Positions 3,173 to 42,364 of a DNA stretch of 64,000 nucleotides are shown here, piece after piece. Source of the stretch: Phycisphaerales bacterium. Lineage in GTDB: Bacteria; Planctomycetota; Phycisphaerae; Phycisphaerales; SM1A02. The notes below the pieces were generated by a model, which did no database searches, was not told the DNA's origin, and worked only from the letters and a program-made list of their open reading frames with translations. Made by a program: the position numbers and the translations under genes. The first letter of the stretch is position 1, and each line of letters begins with the position of its first letter. The DNA is taken from assembly GCA_022446965.1 (NCBI GenBank), contig JAKVBV010000004.1, positions 1 to 64,000 on the forward strand, in the 5' to 3' direction.

Positions 3173-5710
3173 TCAGGCCGGGGCTTCCTCTTCCTGTTCG
3201 GAAGACTCGTCCGTATCCGCCTTGGCCGATGATGTTTCGCACGGCGTGAAGAACAGGTTGTCTTCGTCTTCCTTGTGCGTGACATCGATCTTGGTTCCAG
3301 TCTCGTACTCACCGCTGAGCAGGGCTTCTGCTAGCGGATCTTCGATGTGTGTGCTGATCGCACGACGCAGTGGACGAGCACCGAAGTCGGGGTTGTAGCC
3401 CTTCTCGATGAGGAAGTCCTTGGCCGCGGCATCGAGCTCCATGTCGAGCCCACGCAGCTTGAGGCGTTCGATCACCTTCTCGAGCTCGTTGTCGATGATG
3501 CCGTAGAGGTCGTCCTTGGTGAGGGGGCGGAACACGATTGTGTCGTCCAGACGGTTGATGAACTCGGGGCGGAAGAACTTCTCCACCTGGCCCATCAGCG
3601 CCGAACGCATCTTCTCGTAGTCCTGCACCTCGGCACGCTTGCCGAAGCCGAAGTTGCTGCCGCCCTTGATGAGGTCGGCGCCGATGTTCGACGTCATGAT
3701 CACGATGCAGTTCTTGAAGTCCACCTTGCGGCCGAACGAGTCGGTGAGGCGTCCTTCCTCCATGATCTGCAGGAGCATGTTGAAGACATCGGGGTGTCCT
3801 TTTTCCACTTCGTCCAGCAGGACGACGGAGTAGGGGCGGCGACGGATCTTCTCCGTGAGCTGGCCGCCTTCTTCGTAGCCGACGTAGCCGGGAGGCGCGC
3901 CGACGAGCCGTGACACGGTGTGCTTCTCCATGTACTCGGACATGTCCAGATACACGAGCGCGTCAGCATCGCCGAACATGAACTCACTGAGGGCCTTGGC
4001 CAACAGCGTCTTGCCCACGCCGGACGGCCCGACAAAGAGGAAGCAGCCCATGGGGCGGTTGGGATCTTTCAGGCCACTCCGCGCCTTGCGAATGGCACGG
4101 GAGACCTGCGTGACGGCATCCGCCTGGCTGACCACGGTCTTGTGCAGTTCGTCTTCGAGCTGCAGCAGACGTGCGGATTCGCTTTCTTCCAGACGGGTCA
4201 GCGGCACGCCGGTGATCTTGGATACGACCTCGGCGATCGTGTCTTCATCCACCGTGCCGGCGGACTGCGCCATGCTGTCACGCCACTCTTCCTTGATGCG
4301 GTCCTTCTCGGCACGCAGCTTCTCAGCTTGATCGCGGAGGTTGGCAGCCTTCTCGTAGTCGGCGCTCTTGACGGCGTCTTCCTTGTCGACGTTGAGCCGT
4401 TCGATCTGCGACTCGATCTCGGTGAGATCTGGCGGCTTGCTCATCGATGACAGACGCACGCTGGCACCGGCTTCGTCGATCACGTCGAGCGACTTGTCGG
4501 GTTGCACGCGAGAGGGCATGTAGCGAGTGGACATTTCCACGGCTGCTTCGAGAGCGCCGTCGGTGATCGTCACACGGTGATGCTCTTCGTACTTGACCCG
4601 AAGTCCCTTGAGGATCTCCACGGTCTGCGAGGCGGACGGGGGCTCGACGGCCACGCTCTGGAAGCGTCGCTCAAGGGCCGCATCCTTCTCGATGTACTTG
4701 CGGTACTCGTCGAACGTGGTGGCACCGATGCATTGAATTTCGCCACGTGACAGGGCAGGCTTGAGCACGTTGGATGCGTCGATGGCACCCTCGGCGCCAC
4801 CAGCACCGACGAGCGTGTGCAGTTCGTCGATGAACAGGATCACGTTGCCAGCCCGACGCACTTCGTTCATCACAGCCTTGATGCGTTCTTCGAACTGGCC
4901 GCGATACTTGGTGCCGGCGACCATCATGGCCAGGTCGAGCACGACCACACGCCGCTCATGCAGCAGGTCGGGCACTTCCTTGTCGATGATCTGTTGCGCG
5001 AGGCCTTCGACGATGGCGGTCTTGCCCACGCCGGCTTCACCCAACAGCACTGGGTTGTTCTTTGTGCGGCGGCAGAGGATCTGCACCAGCCGTTCGATTT
5101 CACCGGCGCGGCCGATGACCGGATCGAGATCCTTGTTGCGAGCGAGCTCGGTGAGATCGCGACCGAAAGAATCCAGTGCAGGCGTCTTGCTCTTGCCACG
5201 GCGGGGGGACGGGCTGGACTGGGCTTCAGGCTCCATGCCTTCGTCCAGTTCTTCCATCTCTTCGCCTTCGACACCGGCGCCCAACAGGTTGAGCACCTCT
5301 TCGCGGACTTCCTCGAGCTTCACGCCGAGATTCATGAGCACTTGAGCGGCCACACCGTCCTGCTCACGAAGCAGGCCGAGCAGCAGGTGCTCAGTGCCCA
5401 CGTAGTTGTGGTTGAGATTGCGTGCTTCCTCGATGGCGTACTCAAGCACCTTCTTGGCGCGAGGCGTCTGGGGCAGCTTGCCCATGGTCACCATCTCAGG
5501 ACCGCTCTTGACGAGCTTCTCAACTTCCAGACGCACCTTGCGGAGGTCGATGTCGAGGTTCTTCAGAACGTTCGCACCGACGCCCGAGCCTTCCTTGACC
5601 AGACCGAGCAGGATGTGCTCAGTACCGATGTACTCATGATTGAACCGCTGGGCTTCCTGATTGGCCAGGGCCATGACTTTGCGTGCGCGGTCCGTGAGAC
5701 GTTCGAACAT
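3173..5710 (-). CDS. clpC: ATP-dependent Clp protease ATP-binding subunit ClpC
   Basis: ClpC is a Hsp100 AAA+ unfoldase that feeds substrates to ClpP. The 845-residue product begins [10 protein letters not shown], the standard ClpC start. Two Clp-N repeats cover residues 1-145. Walker A of D1 is GEAGVGKT near 224-231, with Walker [11 protein letters not shown] near 293-302. A UVR-type coiled segment lies around 443-480, which separates ClpC from ClpA and ClpB. Walker A of D2 is GPSGVGKT near 561-568, and a C-terminal ClpB-D2 small domain follows. The protein ends in an acidic tail. The clpP gene is not in this window. The 5' region holds TAGACT about 66 nt upstream of the ATG. Confidence 0.97.
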
Positions 5711-36000: not shown

Positions 36001-36110
36001 CCGAGCGCATCATCGGTACGGGCGAGGAGTGGATCACGGAAATGAGCACAGGCCAATTGCGTGACCTGCTCACACTGCGTGACGACGCCTTCTCGGGGGT
36101 GGAAGCATGA
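33024..36110 (+). CDS. SNF2-family DEAD/DEAH helicase
   Basis: This 1028-residue protein is a bacterial SNF2 ATPase of the HepA/RapA-like group that remodels protein-DNA complexes. Residues 1-530 are an N-terminal region typical of the planctomycete/actinobacterial SNF2 proteins. The ATPase core follows: [14 protein letters not shown] (Walker A, about 560-573), TTYALVARD, the box DEAQSIKN (about 664), [18 protein letters not shown], and the C-lobe with [34 protein letters not shown] and [11 protein letters not shown]. A partner gene overlaps its stop by 4 bp, the usual arrangement for this family. Confidence 0.93.
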   Translation: [1028 protein letters not shown]

Positions 36111-36967
36111 TTCGCGGTTCCGACGAAGCTCGCGCTCCACGTCCATCGCGTCGTCGCGGCCGACGGTTGCGGCTCAAGATGGAGCAGGACCAACTTCGCG
36201 CCAACGCCTTGTGTGCAGCGTGGATCGACACCGTCACGGCGCTCGTGGGGGAGGCTGCCATGGCGGACGGTTTCACGGCGGCCAAGGAAGGTGCGGTGCG
36301 CAGTCTGGACTTCAGTGCCGGTCGCATTTCCGGTCCAGTCGAAGCTGACGGCGAAGCGCCGCGCAACGTGGCCTTCATCCTGCCGGTGATCGATGATGCG
36401 TCATGGGATGCCCTCGTGGCCGACATGGCCGGGGAGGCTGTGTACACCGCACGACTGCTCGAAGGCCAACTACCGCCGGATCTCGAAGCGCTCTTCAGCC
36501 GTCGTGGTCTTGCCTTGGTCCCGCCACAAGATGACGGTCTCGCTGTGGACGCCGACAAGCGCGTCACCAAGCAGCACTGGCGGCCGGCCGCCGTGGCATG
36601 GTTGGTCGCCGAGCGGCTGACCACCCATCCGCTGGAGTTGCTCACCGTGCGGGGGATGCCGGCAGAAGTTTTGTTGGAGCGATTGCGACACCATCGCACC
36701 CGTCGCAACGCCGACGGTTCCGAGGCGCATCCCCTGGCTCAGATTGATCCGCAATTGATGAAGGGTGAGCCCATCTCCGCGGCGGCGTCAGCGTTCTGGC
36801 GGAGCCCGCATCCTGTCCACGATGTACCCCGCGATGCGCATCCTGAGCACGCCCTGTTGCGGCGACTAGGTGGGTCGAGCCTGGGTGGCAAGTTCCCCCT
36901 CTGTGGCCTGCTGGCGACGATCTACGACGAGATCGCCAGTGAGGCCCGCGATCTGCAGGATCGCTGA
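36107..36967 (+). CDS. SWIM-type partner of the SNF2 helicase, zinc ligands lost
   Basis: The gene next to this kind of SNF2 helicase usually encodes a SWIM zinc-finger protein. This 286-residue product keeps the surrounding features: ALFSRRGLALVPP before the motif, and AAVAWLVAERLTTHPLELLTVRGM after it (about 161-184), which match the 'HxAAVxYLLAE...P..LF.LRG' end of SWIM proteins. The CxC...CxH ligands expected at about 143-160 are absent; the stretch reads LAVDADKRVTKQHWRP with only His157. So it probably does not bind zinc this way. The start overlaps the helicase stop. It is otherwise unassigned, with a basic N-terminus (residues 8-24). Confidence 0.7.
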   Translation: MIRGSDEARAPRPSRRRGRRLRLKMEQDQLRANALCAAWIDTVTALVGEAAMADGFTAAKEGAVRSLDFSAGRISGPVEADGEAPRNVAFILPVIDDASWDALVADMAGEAVYTARLLEGQLPPDLEALFSRRGLALVPPQDDGLAVDADKRVTKQHWRPAAVAWLVAERLTTHPLELLTVRGMPAEVLLERLRHHRTRRNADGSEAHPLAQIDPQLMKGEPISAAASAFWRSPHPVHDVPRDAHPEHALLRRLGGSSLGGKFPLCGLLATIYDEIASEARDLQDR

Positions 36968-38969: not shown

Positions 38970-38982
38970 GGGGTCAGACCCC
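38970..38982. repeat. GGGGTCAGACCCC palindrome overlapping a stop codon
   Basis: This is the reverse complement of the box at 46515-46527. Here the minus-strand reading supplies the last Gly-Val and the TGA of the M50 protease gene. Confidence 0.6.
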
Positions 38983-39642
38983 GGCCACGAGCTTGGCCAC
39001 AGTGGCGGTGGCGGCGGCGGCGAGGCCCCAGAACACGCTGAAAGCCCCGGTCATGAAGATGAGCATCAGCACCATGAGTGAGGCGATGCCCGCATTGGGG
39101 TGGCTGCTCAGCCGGCGAATGGGCTCAAAAAGGCCCTCAAGGATGCGCCAGCCGTCCAGTGGCGGCATGGGAAGCAGATTGAACAGGCACAACAAGGCGT
39201 TGATCATGCCGCCGATCGACAGAAAGGTCACGGCGTACGAGGCCATCGGGCCTTCCCACCCAGATCGCATGAGCAGGCCCAGCGCGACGCTACACAGCAG
39301 AAACAGTGCCAAATTCATCGCTGGCCCAGCAGCGGCCACCAGCACGCTGCCCCAGCGCCGGTTGCGAAATCGGGCAGGATTCACGGGCATCACACCCCAG
39401 GCAATCCCCAAGATGGCGAACAACAGCAGTGAGAAGCCGCCCATGTGCACCATCGGGTCAAGGGTCATGCGGCCCAGTTCGCGGGGTGTACCGTCACCTT
39501 GCCGCAGGGCTGCCCAGCCATGAGCCAGCTCATGGAGCACGATCGACCCGATCACGGCCACCGTCCACGAGGCAACGGCAACCGCCCCAGCGGTGCCGCC
39601 GTCATGCCTGTCGAAGATCATGTGTACCCACCATCCGCTCAC
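38974..39642 (-). CDS. Site-2-type intramembrane metalloprotease (M50)
   Basis: The 222-residue membrane protein has about six helices, the zinc motif HELAH (residues 37-41) in the first, and the third ligand in LLPMPPLDGWRIL (Asp near 165). It is the short rhomboid-like M50B form without a PDZ domain. Such enzymes cut membrane proteins; the substrate is unknown. The start is a GTG at 39642 with AGGAGG 6 nt upstream. Its final codons and stop lie within a GGGGTCAGACCCC palindrome. Confidence 0.88.
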   Translation of the reverse strand: MSGWWVHMIFDRHDGGTAGAVAVASWTVAVIGSIVLHELAHGWAALRQGDGTPRELGRMTLDPMVHMGGFSLLLFAILGIAWGVMPVNPARFRNRRWGSVLVAAAGPAMNLALFLLCSVALGLLMRSGWEGPMASYAVTFLSIGGMINALLCLFNLLPMPPLDGWRILEGLFEPIRRLSSHPNAGIASLMVLMLIFMTGAFSVFWGLAAAATATVAKLVAGV

Positions 39643-39977
39643 GGTCGACCTCCTAGGGTGCCGGAAAACCCCTCGTTTTTGAGGGCTGGAGCGGCATGCT
39701 ATCGAAGGTTGGGCGCGTCCATGGCCGGATTGGCCACTTTCTCACTGTCAGGGCGAACTCACCACGGCTGTGGGACATACGAATGGCCATGCAGGCTGTT
39801 GCTGTCACCTCACCGCCGCTGCGCGGACTCACTCGCCTTGGATCCGCGCTTCCGGTGGTGCCGACACCGTGGGAATGCTCGGCTAGAATCGCCACCGCCG
39901 TGGGCCGTACGGTGTCCCGAGTGGGGCGTCTTGGCTTGATCCGGGAGGATTCCGGAGCCCGTACGGCGAGTAGAGCC
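39643..39977. other. Divergent control region between the protease and sigma factor genes
   Basis: These 335 bases hold no convincing gene. They contain the protease Shine-Dalgarno site, a small hairpin (CCCTC-GAGGG near 39668-39683) and the likely promoter of the sigma factor gene at 39861-39889. Confidence 0.4.
39861..39889 (+). promoter_or_regulatory. Possible promoter of the ECF sigma gene
   Basis: CCGACA (39861-39866) and TAGAAT (39884-39889) are separated by exactly 17 bp. The leader would be about 80 nt. Confidence 0.4.
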
Positions 39978-40586
39978 GTGACAGCACCCACCGACGAACA
40001 ACTCATCGAATCGCACTTGGCCGGAGACGCTTCGGCCTTCACCACATTGGTGGAGCGCTACGCCCTTGAGTTGGTCCCGTTCCTGACTCGGCTGACCGGG
40101 TCACGAGCGGCCGCCGAAGACGTCTTCCAGGAGACGTTCCTGCAGGTGCATCAATCAGCCCACACCTTTGATTTGAGCCGTCGATTCCGTCCGTGGATGT
40201 ACACGATCGCGGTCAACAAGGGCCGTGACTGGCACCGCCGCAACAAGCGTCGCAAGGCGTTGTCCTTGTCGGTGCCCGTGGGCGAGGATGGCCGTGACAG
40301 CTTTGTCGACCTGCTGGCCGCCGACACGGCCTCGCCCGACGCCCCCATCAGTGCCAGCGAAGAGGCGGCCAAAGTGAAGCGGGTTGTCGACACCATGCCC
40401 GAACACCAACGCGAGATCATTCTGCTGAGTTATTTCCAGAAGCTCTCGTACAACCAGATTGCCGAGACACTTCGTATTCCACTGGGCACGGTCAAGAGCC
40501 GTCTCCATGCAGCAGTGGCGTCATTCGCCCGCGCGTGGGAAGTGGAATCCGGGTCACAGAAGGAACCTTCCGTTGACACACCCTGA
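39978..40586 (+). CDS. ECF-type RNA polymerase sigma factor
   Basis: The 202-residue protein has sigma region 2 (DEQLIESHLAGDASAFTTLVERY, then TGSRAAAEDVFQETFLQVHQ at about 45-64, RFRPWMYTIAVNKGRDWHRR) and region 4 (about 130-185: MPEHQREIILLSYFQKLSYNQIAETLRIPLGTVKSRLHAAV). The linker is of ordinary length and regions 1 and 3 are absent, so it is an ECF factor. The GTG at 39978 is the only start that fits region 2; its Shine-Dalgarno site is weak. The next gene overlaps its end by 14 bp and is likely its regulator. Confidence 0.9.
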   Translation: MTAPTDEQLIESHLAGDASAFTTLVERYALELVPFLTRLTGSRAAAEDVFQETFLQVHQSAHTFDLSRRFRPWMYTIAVNKGRDWHRRNKRRKALSLSVPVGEDGRDSFVDLLAADTASPDAPISASEEAAKVKRVVDTMPEHQREIILLSYFQKLSYNQIAETLRIPLGTVKSRLHAAVASFARAWEVESGSQKEPSVDTP

Positions 40587-41484
40587 CGATACGGGCACGC
40601 CTGCATTGAGCCCGGCTGATCGAGCCGCGATCGATCACCTTGCTGAAGCAGGATTCAACGAAGACCAACTGCACGGTCTTGACGGCGATGCGCTCACACG
40701 AGCGCACGCCGCTCATTCGTTATTGGGGAACTTGAACAGCTATCCCGATGGTGAACTCTCCGAAGACGACCGCACGACGTTGGTGCATGCCACGATGGCG
40801 AGAATTCGTCGCGAAGAAGACATGCAGCATCAACGGATGCGGCTGCAGCCTGACGACGCTTCCGGCCGAGGCAGCCGAATGCGGTTCCGCCTAGCTGAGT
40901 TCGGCGCTGTCGGTGCCGTTGCCGCCATGGTGGCCGGCGCTGCCGTCCCCATGGCCCATATGGCCAAGGAACGCGCGGTTTCGCTGGGAACGCACCGAAA
41001 CCTGTCTGCGCAGCACGCAGGGATCACATCGTGGGCGACCGCCAACAATGGCCGACTGCCCTCCAGGGCGGTCTCCGAAGGCGTGTCTGACCTCACCGGC
41101 ACGGCCGCGACCCAGTTGGACATTGGTGCGGTGATTGATCACGGCCACTGCCACAAGGGCACGCTGCAGAATCCTCGACGGCCCGGAACCGGTGTCCATG
41201 GATTTTCGGTCATTGTGATGCCCATCTCAGGTGGCTTCTTTGGCGATGCGGAGCTGGTGTTGGTGGGCGACCGCAACCCCGCTCTGGAAGGCCTTCTGGA
41301 TGGCCAGTCATTCGATGAGGCCATCAGCCAGCAGCGATTTCGTCGGCGGCTGACCGACCATCCGGCGGTCCTGTTTGGTGATGGTCGGGTGATTGACGCC
41401 CGTAACGGCACCGTGAAGGGCGATCACGTCTGGAATGTGGACCGGTCCGGTGCCATCGAGCAAGATGTGCTGCTGGTGCACTGA
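40573..41484 (+). CDS. Single-pass membrane protein, likely partner (anti-sigma) of the ECF factor
   Basis: The 303-residue protein starts at TTG 40573 (AAGGA 8 nt upstream), inside the end of the sigma gene. Residues 1-110 are cytoplasmic and helical, one transmembrane helix lies at about 112-135, and the rest is extracytoplasmic. That outer part resembles planctomycete prepilin-like proteins: ITSWATANNGRLPS near the start and HPAVLFGDGRVIDARNG near the end, like the 'H...DG' signature. No zinc HxxxCxxC motif of classical anti-sigma factors is found. The regulator role comes from gene overlap. Confidence 0.62.
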   Translation: MTHPDDTGTPALSPADRAAIDHLAEAGFNEDQLHGLDGDALTRAHAAHSLLGNLNSYPDGELSEDDRTTLVHATMARIRREEDMQHQRMRLQPDDASGRGSRMRFRLAEFGAVGAVAAMVAGAAVPMAHMAKERAVSLGTHRNLSAQHAGITSWATANNGRLPSRAVSEGVSDLTGTAATQLDIGAVIDHGHCHKGTLQNPRRPGTGVHGFSVIVMPISGGFFGDAELVLVGDRNPALEGLLDGQSFDEAISQQRFRRRLTDHPAVLFGDGRVIDARNGTVKGDHVWNVDRSGAIEQDVLLVH

Positions 41485-41598: not shown

Positions 41599-41883
41599 AT
41601 GCCCAAGAACAAGCCCAACAAGGGTCTGCTCAAGCGCATCCGCATCACCTCCTCCGGGCGGGTGAAGTTTGGACGTGCCTTTGCCCGCCATAAGCGGTCG
41701 CACAAGTCAGGCAAGCTCCTGCGTTCGTATCACCGGAGCGCGTACGCCCATCCGTCGGATGTGCGTCGGGTCGCCGCCTTGCTGCATCGTCGAATCACGG
41801 CCGGTCCGGCCGAGACCTGCTGCAGTTCCTCGTGCGATGCCACCGCCGCGGTGGACACGGCAGAAGAGACGACGGAAGACTGA
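41599..41883 (+). CDS. rpmI: 50S ribosomal protein L35 with a Cys-containing C-terminal extension
   Basis: Residues 1-64 are normal L35 (MPKNKPNKGLLKRIRITSSGR, ARHKRSHKSGKLLR). The protein runs on to 94 residues with the extension ETCCSSSCDATAA and an acidic end (AEETTED); typical L35 has 64-66 residues. The three Cys residues (74, 75, 79) have no partner motif. The infC gene that often lies upstream is absent. Confidence 0.93.
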   Translation: MPKNKPNKGLLKRIRITSSGRVKFGRAFARHKRSHKSGKLLRSYHRSAYAHPSDVRRVAALLHRRITAGPAETCCSSSCDATAAVDTAEETTED

Positions 41884-41992
41884 TTCACGTGTGCCATCGG
41901 GCAAGGTGCCCGGTCGCAGTGACACAGAGTTTGTATTCGACGGGTCGAAGCGGTGACACCATCACCCTCCGATCGAATCAGGAGAGTTCGAC

Positions 41993-42364
41993 ATGCCTCG
42001 CGCACGAAAAGGTGCTGCACGCACCAAGGCCCGCAACCGCATCCTTCGCGAAGCTCGCGGGTACCAGGGAACCAACCGACGTCACAAGCAGCAGGCGCAA
42101 GTCGCGCTGCTGCGTGCGGGCAGCTTCGCCTACCGCGATCGCCGCAACCGCAAGCGTGACTTCCGTCGCCTGTGGATCACCCGTATCTCCGCCGCCTGCC
42201 GCATGCGAAACACGCGCTACAGCCGGTTCATCAACGGGCTTGGTCGCGCCGGTATCGCGCTGAACCGCAAGATGCTCAGCGAGATCGCCATCAGCGATCC
42301 GGCCACGTTCGACACGCTCGTGGAGCAGGCCGAAGCCTCGACCACGGCGCAGGCCGCGGGCTGA
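41993..42364 (+). CDS. rplT: 50S ribosomal protein L20
   Basis: The 123-residue protein has the L20 sequence: PRARKGAARTKARNRILREARGYQG, RDRRNRKRDFRRLWITRISAACR, and LGRAGIALNRKMLSEIAISDP. L20 is needed early in 50S assembly. AGGAGAG lies about 7 nt before the ATG. A 109-nt spacer separates it from rpmI. Confidence 0.97.
   Translation: MPRARKGAARTKARNRILREARGYQGTNRRHKQQAQVALLRAGSFAYRDRRNRKRDFRRLWITRISAACRMRNTRYSRFINGLGRAGIALNRKMLSEIAISDPATFDTLVEQAEASTTAQAAG

Follow-up and report, generated by a model that had tools for sequence, protein, structure and literature searches.

A Phycisphaerales ECF sigma factor gene paired with a putative anti-sigma factor that carries a type IV prepilin-like sensor half

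Organization of the locus

The window analysed here is a 64,000-nucleotide stretch of a Phycisphaerales genome (contig JAKVBV010000004.1, assembly GCA_022446965.1). An initial annotation of this DNA, made from the letters alone, described an ECF sigma factor gene overlapped for 14 bp by a gene for a membrane protein, and this layout holds: the genes lie at 39978-40586 and 40573-41484, and the overlap (40573-40586) is exactly 14 bp. The features of the locus are as follows.

38974-39642, - strand: M50 metalloprotease gene, adjoining the sigma gene and divergent from it
39884..39889, + strand: TAGAAT, vegetative -10-like site 5′ of the operon, putative promoter element
39978..40586, + strand: ECF sigma factor gene; GTG start, 202 aa; Sigma70_r2 and Sigma70_r4_2 above the Pfam cut-offs; TIGR02937
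40560..40565, + strand: AAGGAA, putative ribosome-binding site 7 nt 5′ of the TTG, read from sequence
40573..41484, + strand: putative anti-sigma factor gene with a pilin-derived transmembrane sensor; TTG start, 303 aa
40573..40857, + strand: putative cytoplasmic zinc-less class I anti-sigma domain, residues ~1-95, from a profile link to class-level domains
40885..40953, + strand: transmembrane helix corresponding to pilin alpha1-N; F105 is pilin position 1 and P126 is pilin Pro22
40897-40899, + strand: codon of E109, pilin Glu5 in the pilin register of the helix
40954..41481, + strand: predicted extracytoplasmic DUF1559-like pilin head, with a shortened H-X6-DG

The sigma factor is readily classified, with Pfam matches to Sigma70_r2 (2.4e-16) and Sigma70_r4_2 (4.1e-14) and an NCBIfam match to TIGR02937 sigma70-ECF (1e-28). 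Its partner has a single hydrophobic segment (residues ~105-127), and when searched alone gave zero matches in Pfam and NCBIfam at E ≤ 10; a scan of viral contigs with the same protein found no relative. The two motifs that the initial annotation cited for a prepilin-like outer part, ITSWATANNGRLPS and VLFGDGRVID, lie at residues 151-164 and 266-275, and relatives carry fuller versions of them (CANNLRxxGxxFxxYAxDxNgxxP and NHGGRGQNVLxxDGxxxWL). Because the window protein has no family match of its own, the prepilin-like assignment could be tested only through these relatives.

Conservation of the sigma factor and its partner

With the window protein alone as query, relatives turned up in 47 of 61 related genomes, and a homologue of the ECF sigma gene lies directly 5′ of the partner gene in all 30 near loci, window included. 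An ECF sigma gene also adjoins 81 of 84 non-redundant members of the family (redundancy judged over the last 150 residues; 40-residue stretches of two of them recur in others). Among loci of the same class outside the window's order, the sigma gene is adjacent in 19 of 20 taken from among the strongest matches, hereafter the class-level loci, and in 17/17 further loci with weaker matches, taken from lower in the list and from a sample of the phylum. Three of the 84 members lack an intact sigma gene: L124 and L135 start at a contig edge, and L119 has a region-4 remnant (3180-3272), to which the upstream sigma gene has shrunk by decay or through an assembly error. The two genes overlap in 52 of the 81 sigma-adjacent pairs, with a 4-bp form in 36 (nearest-start-codon rule). 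The tight coupling that the initial annotation read from a single overlap therefore goes beyond chance, and the pair is conserved, contrary to the first of the two outcomes by which that annotation said its proposal would be refuted.

For profile searches we built an alignment, A1, from 28 of the 30 near loci, leaving out L010 and L019 for their long or doubled N-termini; a closer set, A2, yielded 15 related loci. A1 matches at E < 1e-35 in 62 of 65 genomes of the window's order (counted from the result table), a count of matches, not of sigma-adjacent loci, among genomes many of which supplied rows of A1. In a phylum sample of 199 genomes, 16 have a match at E ≤ 1e-20, 13 of them in the same class and three in another class; these three (L215-L217) all have a GFTLIEL prepilin motif and no sigma gene upstream. 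Finally, in 20 genomes picked mostly for weak best matches (three of the window's order and 17 others, mainly from our families f7, f11 and f16), with 30 loci and at least one locus per genome, a sigma-adjacent member was found only in one (G186, locus L187), which makes it probable that part of the class lacks the pair.

The outer half is homologous to DUF1559-type prepilins

Through the relatives, the prepilin-like outer part proposed in the initial annotation is borne out as whole-length homology to planctomycete prepilins. When compared with 28 DUF1559 prepilins of the class, the outer part aligns over 183 columns, from the helix to the H-X9-DG region (hhalign, 99.8%, E 9.7e-29), and a reversed control gave 0.5% and E 0.11. 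The 28 prepilins were picked from 30 loci with a pattern requiring G, A or S at -1, and their own -1 residues therefore prove nothing. The closest true prepilins among those 28 (L168, L180 and L165) match at E 5e-37 to 7e-36 over nearly the whole domain. Single-sequence Pfam matches of the DUF1559 kind are seen in nine of 28 family members at E ≤ 1; four of these scores (three of 21.7-22.9 bits and one of 13.1) all fall below the cut-off of 23.3. PF07596 found no match at E ≤ 0.01 in the window's own genome, and control genomes gave no signal either. By profile comparison, then, the outer half is a homologue of type IV prepilins of the DUF1559 kind.

Matches to pilins of known structure point the same way. 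Searched against the PDB by sequence, A1 finds the geopilin 7tgg (E 8.7e-4), 9egp (0.0036) and 2m7g (0.0072), and more weakly PilE1 (0.061) and GspG (1.2); these alignments share pilin positions 1 and 5 and Pro22 with the family. An acidic residue stands at position 5 in 86 of 100 members and proline at position 22 in 94 of 100, and no acidic residue occurs at helix positions 6 to 24 in any of 83 rows. The window equivalents are F105, E109 and P126, and its protein thus has the Glu5 within a hydrophobic alpha1 that characterizes type IV prepilins.

Structure predictions agree in register. Two AlphaFold models are poor (pLDDT 52 and 56); both show three cytoplasmic helices, one helix of 48-50 residues and then strands, and that of the window has an extra three-residue stretch and places its long helix at 108-157 with low confidence. 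Foldseek searches against the PDB and viral models gave nothing significant. VIA structural alignment places type IV pilins at ranks 1-3 and 6, and at ranks 1 and 2 pilin residue 1 falls on model residue 105-106, the same register as in the sequence; with Z only 2.8-3.9, we use these alignments solely as agreement on register. No anti-sigma fold appeared in the VIA alignment of this poor model, which is not evidence of absence.

Two features of the head vary within the family. The motif histidine is kept in 93 of 101 members, with H-X6-DG in the window and H-X10-DG in many relatives. Two head cysteines (A1 profile positions 137 and 197) occur together in 85 members, are jointly missing from 11 and are discordant in three (p 7e-12). 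Parsimony on a FastTree tree of 99 members requires six and five changes for the two positions singly and seven jointly, or about four shared changes (6 + 5 - 7). The cysteines have been gained or lost together, as expected of a disulfide, and the pair is probably a disulfide of the pilin head; this fits a head that probably lies outside the cytoplasm. The window has T and N at these positions, and since its lineage has lost both cysteines and shortened the motif to H-X6-DG, the head here appears to be a derived form.

Loss of the prepilin cleavage motif

In a set of 138 unique homologues, a class III cleavage motif with G at -1 occurs in 0 of 97 sigma-adjacent proteins and in 26 of 41 non-adjacent ones (Fisher 7e-18); with G, A or S permitted at -1, the counts are 0/97 and 36/41 (4e-28). 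The non-adjacent set includes L119, L124 and L135, and these three family members without an intact sigma gene account for three of its five exceptions. With two duplicate pairs still in each side, the G(-1) count is 0/99 versus 27/42, and a looser pattern gives 18/99 versus 38/42, several of the 18 matching elsewhere in the protein. Read by profile column, the residue at -1 is most commonly Arg (46 of 100), with Gly in 10 of 100. The window has R104 where prepilins have Gly(-1), and lacks the short leader ending in glycine or another small residue. Among eight prepilin rows (seven from the window's own genome, two of which are one gene, and one from L113), G is present at -1 in seven and E at position 5 in all eight. 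Thus, the proteins paired with a sigma gene have lost the canonical cleavage motif, as judged from their sequences.

These counts bear on the idea that the partner is a dual-purpose pseudopilin, which prepilin peptidase would cut, the head then going into a filament and the released anti-sigma domain being degraded, with assembly turning sigma on. Such a protein would be expected to keep the pilin fold and Glu5, as these do, in a genome encoding prepilin peptidase, as this one does; moreover, G(-1) with a hydrophobic +1 is present in seven of 83 rows, and since Gly stands at -1 in 10 of 100 members, some might still be cut. Nonetheless, with the motif absent from all 97 sigma-adjacent members, Arg the commonest residue at -1, in the window as well, and a cytoplasmic part of ~100 residues, whereas the published leaders that glycine ends in bacterial prepilins are described as 6-26 residues long (PMC4471445), we regard this as highly improbable.

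The cytoplasmic part is linked through relatives to class I anti-sigma domains

A profile of all 20 class-level cytoplasmic domains (A7) has as its top PDB rows RskA (4nqw_B, E 4e-4) and RsiW (5wuq_C, E 0.15, not significant). A7 repeats an earlier 16-member profile, A5, which excluded L114, L116, L119 and L120 and matched RskA at E 1.4e-4. In NCBIfam, NF052375 ('anti-sigma factor') matches 12 of the 20 class-level domains (best 2.4e-12) and PRK13920 ('putative anti-sigmaE') matches 11 of the 20 (best 2.1e-8). The one member for which full scores are given reaches 21 and 23.6 bits, against whole-protein cut-offs of 100 (NF052375) and 225 bits (PRK13920). Pfam RskA_N matches one of the 16 class-level domains first tested (0.002). 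By these profile matches, the N-terminal part of the class-level relatives is a zinc-less class I (RskA-like) anti-sigma domain.

The domain has diverged in the window's order, to judge from the same kinds of search. A profile of 25 order-level sequences (A6, made of the window and 24 of the 50 order-level domains that a pattern selected from 63) found no anti-sigma factor in the PDB. Its top PDB row, a lysozyme entry (E 7.5e-6), was discarded as a short chance match of 19 residues with no stretch passing alone. Against NCBIfam, the 25 domains gave one weak anti-sigma match for each of two models, with NF052375 matching only one of 25 (E 0.0099), and the whole-protein NF052375 matches listed score 16-26 bits against a cut-off of 100. 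A6 and A7 nevertheless align with each other (hhalign, 96.6%, E 5.6e-10), and it is through this link and the gene order that the window domain can be called a putative anti-sigma domain, by descent and gene order and not by direct recognition.

An alternative explanation is that the partner is no anti-sigma factor, only a pilin-like membrane protein that shares a transcript with the sigma gene. The lack of any family match for the window protein alone is compatible with this, as is the failure of the order-level N-terminal domain to be recognized as an anti-sigma factor in the PDB. We consider it improbable, in view of the RskA-like domain in the class-level orthologues and of the pairing with an ECF gene, which sharply separates these proteins from true prepilins.

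The initial annotation had also proposed a new anti-sigma class that senses pilin-like or envelope cues. Its reading as an anti-sigma factor stands in part: the cytoplasmic part has a tie to anti-sigma domains of class I and the novelty lies in the outer part as a sensor, but the class is not new, as the anti-sigma domain is of the known RskA-like class I. Mirror-tree correlations of sigma with the anti-sigma domain and with the head (r = 0.47 and 0.29 overall, 0.23 and 0.20 in the order, and 0.66 and 0.77 in the class) do not give a stronger co-evolution with the former that is robust across the sets.

Promoter, neighbouring genes and genome context

In 27 of 41 loci a vegetative -10-like hexamer lies in the 130 bp that precede the sigma gene, compared with a mean of 3.5 and a maximum of nine in 300 block-shuffled sets. 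No ECF-type GAAC...CGT site occurs in the 250 bp upstream of the window sigma gene, and a search of 41 upstream regions for ECF-type autoregulatory promoters returned two chance-looking matches, neither in the window. Given a housekeeping-like promoter and no ECF-type site, sigma is probably controlled mainly after translation.

In clusters of neighbouring genes spanning at least four loci (59 loci; rough ORF calling in GC-rich DNA), nothing besides the pair recurs in more than two of 19 loci outside the order, and pilus genes were not seen as recurrent neighbours. The context therefore names no cue. Ribosomal protein genes lie nearby: directly downstream of the pair in the window (41599-42364) are rpmI (Pfam L35p) and a likely rplT, assigned by eye, and in 26 of 40 wide loci the centre of rpmI lies 1.3-1.8 kb downstream of that of the sigma gene. 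An ORF at 36107-36967 (+ strand), following a helicase-like ORF (by eye), has no Pfam match at E ≤ 0.01 and a similarly placed homologue in seven of the 40 wide loci.

In 13 of the 40 wide loci a divergent M50 gene likewise precedes sigma, at a distance of 1.0-3.9 kb, and only in L044 is it as close as in the window; genes found with the upstream M50 resemble rpsP, trmD or rplS (labels assigned by eye). A second M50 protein is encoded elsewhere in the genome, as a 702-residue frame. Release of sigma by M50 proteolysis is possible, although a role for this M50 as the dedicated protease is unproven, with an M50 gene within 4 kb of the pair in only the 13 loci.

These observations bear on whether the sensor has anything to do with pili. 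The pilin-derived half could instead be without any pilus tie and sense cell-wall stress, redox through the disulfide, or a ligand, with proteolytic release as for RseA or RsiW. The two M50 proteins, the divergence of the head with the loss of its cysteine pair in the window lineage, and the absence of pilus genes among the recurrent neighbours would all suit such a sensor. The Glu5-like acid and Pro22 are harder to reconcile with it, as both are kept class-wide (in 86 and 94 of 100 members) and a mere anchor needs neither; similarly, 27 of the 40 wide loci, a few of them truncated by contig ends, showed no M50 gene near the pair, and window-like closeness is limited to the single locus. We view a sensor without a pilus tie as a real possibility, if somewhat short of probable.

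A model for an anchored, prepilin-derived anti-sigma factor

We think it likely that the locus encodes an ECF sigma factor and its anti-sigma factor, with a prepilin that has evaded processing as the sensor. The architecture, the gene pairing, the homology of both halves and the loss of the cleavage motif are properties of the sequences themselves; we infer the conversion of a prepilin into an anchored receptor. A DUF1559-type type IV prepilin would have acquired a class I anti-sigma domain at its N-terminus, making it an inhibitor, with the pilin alpha1 helix serving as membrane anchor and the pilin head as sensor. With the prepilin-peptidase site lost, the protein would stay uncut in the inner membrane, its anti-sigma domain attached. 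The housekeeping promoter would provide a basal level of sigma for post-translational control, and the cytoplasmic domain would keep this sigma factor inactive. We predict that the pilin-like half, with its Glu5-like residue, packs against pilins, pseudopilins or the assembly platform, and that an altered contact or damage to the head would change the helix or expose the protein to proteolysis, thereby releasing sigma.

As the cue for this prepilin-derived receptor, we prefer the pilin/pseudopilin pool or the assembly platform, by analogy, because pilins contact one another through the alpha1 helix with Glu5 (PMC4471445), because ten T2SSE-family ATPase matches and one prepilin peptidase match are present in the genome, and because the PilS-PilR system of Pseudomonas responds to inner-membrane pilin levels (PMC6058289). 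The genome also encodes GFTLVEL-type prepilins. In its most specific form the model describes an uncut 'spy pilin' that mixes with pilins or pseudopilins, or docks on the platform, through its Glu5 helix, so that sigma would read the depletion or build-up of subunits; we offer this tentatively and, on the whole, doubt it. If true, much of the class would possess an anti-sigma factor that senses pilins within the membrane.

Relation to known systems

RskA (anti-sigma-K), a zinc-less, membrane-bound class I anti-sigma factor, has one transmembrane helix and is encoded beside its ECF sigma gene. The window protein shares both properties, and its family has an N-terminal domain of the same type, as seen in the profile match to 4nqw_B. 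Unlike RskA, its outer part appears to be a converted type IV pilin, and the domain in the window's order has diverged and is recognized only through relatives. Anti-sigma factors of the RseA/RsiW type, released by S1P and M50 cleavage, have the same topology as that predicted for the window protein; RsiW is only the second, non-significant PDB row, M50 proteins of the kind used on this type are encoded in the window's own genome, and we know of no relationship between the sensor half of RseA or RsiW and the pilin-derived one. PilS is a histidine kinase and is not known to be pilin-derived; it serves as a working analogy for a regulator that reads pilins inside the membrane, and we claim no homology.

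DUF1559, or H-X9-DG, prepilins (PF07596, TIGR04294) are homologous to the window protein from the transmembrane helix to the H-X-DG motif. Unlike them, the window protein has a cytoplasmic anti-sigma domain of ~100 residues in place of a short leader, has lost the cleavage motif and is encoded alongside an ECF sigma gene. In a study that used Pfam to scan the domains fused to class I anti-sigma factors, the main text has no words beginning 'pilin' or 'DUF1559' (PMC7406223). Among the titles and abstract openings listed for anti-sigma factors together with pilins or prepilins, none describes such a protein; an earlier mention in the tables of ECF classification or planctomycete ECF papers is possible. 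What is new is the sensor variant, the kind of anti-sigma factor being already known.

Planctomycetes have many DUF1559 proteins, and they have ECF sigma factors, and the pair ties the two together. In Planctopirus limnophila, for example, 68 DUF1559 paralogues are reported to form the largest paralogue group, and two of these, whose function is unknown, are essential (PMC10632474). The pair offers a candidate role for the DUF1559-type domain, that of sensor in an anti-sigma factor, and it suggests a route from pilus subunit to signalling receptor, in which a cleavage site is lost and an anti-sigma domain gained. Through it these bacteria may monitor the condition of their own pili or secretion fibres.

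Variants within the family

Two loci, L019 (1234-2331, - strand) and L029 (1156-2349, - strand), appear to carry the anti-sigma domain twice in tandem ahead of the membrane helix, each seen as two separate tblastn stretches. In the head, many order-level members (such as L024, L009 and L011, around GYCxxxHLxCP) add a C-x3-H-x2-C stretch, often with further histidines, which could bind metal; the class-level members examined have the CP and lack the preceding C-x3-H.
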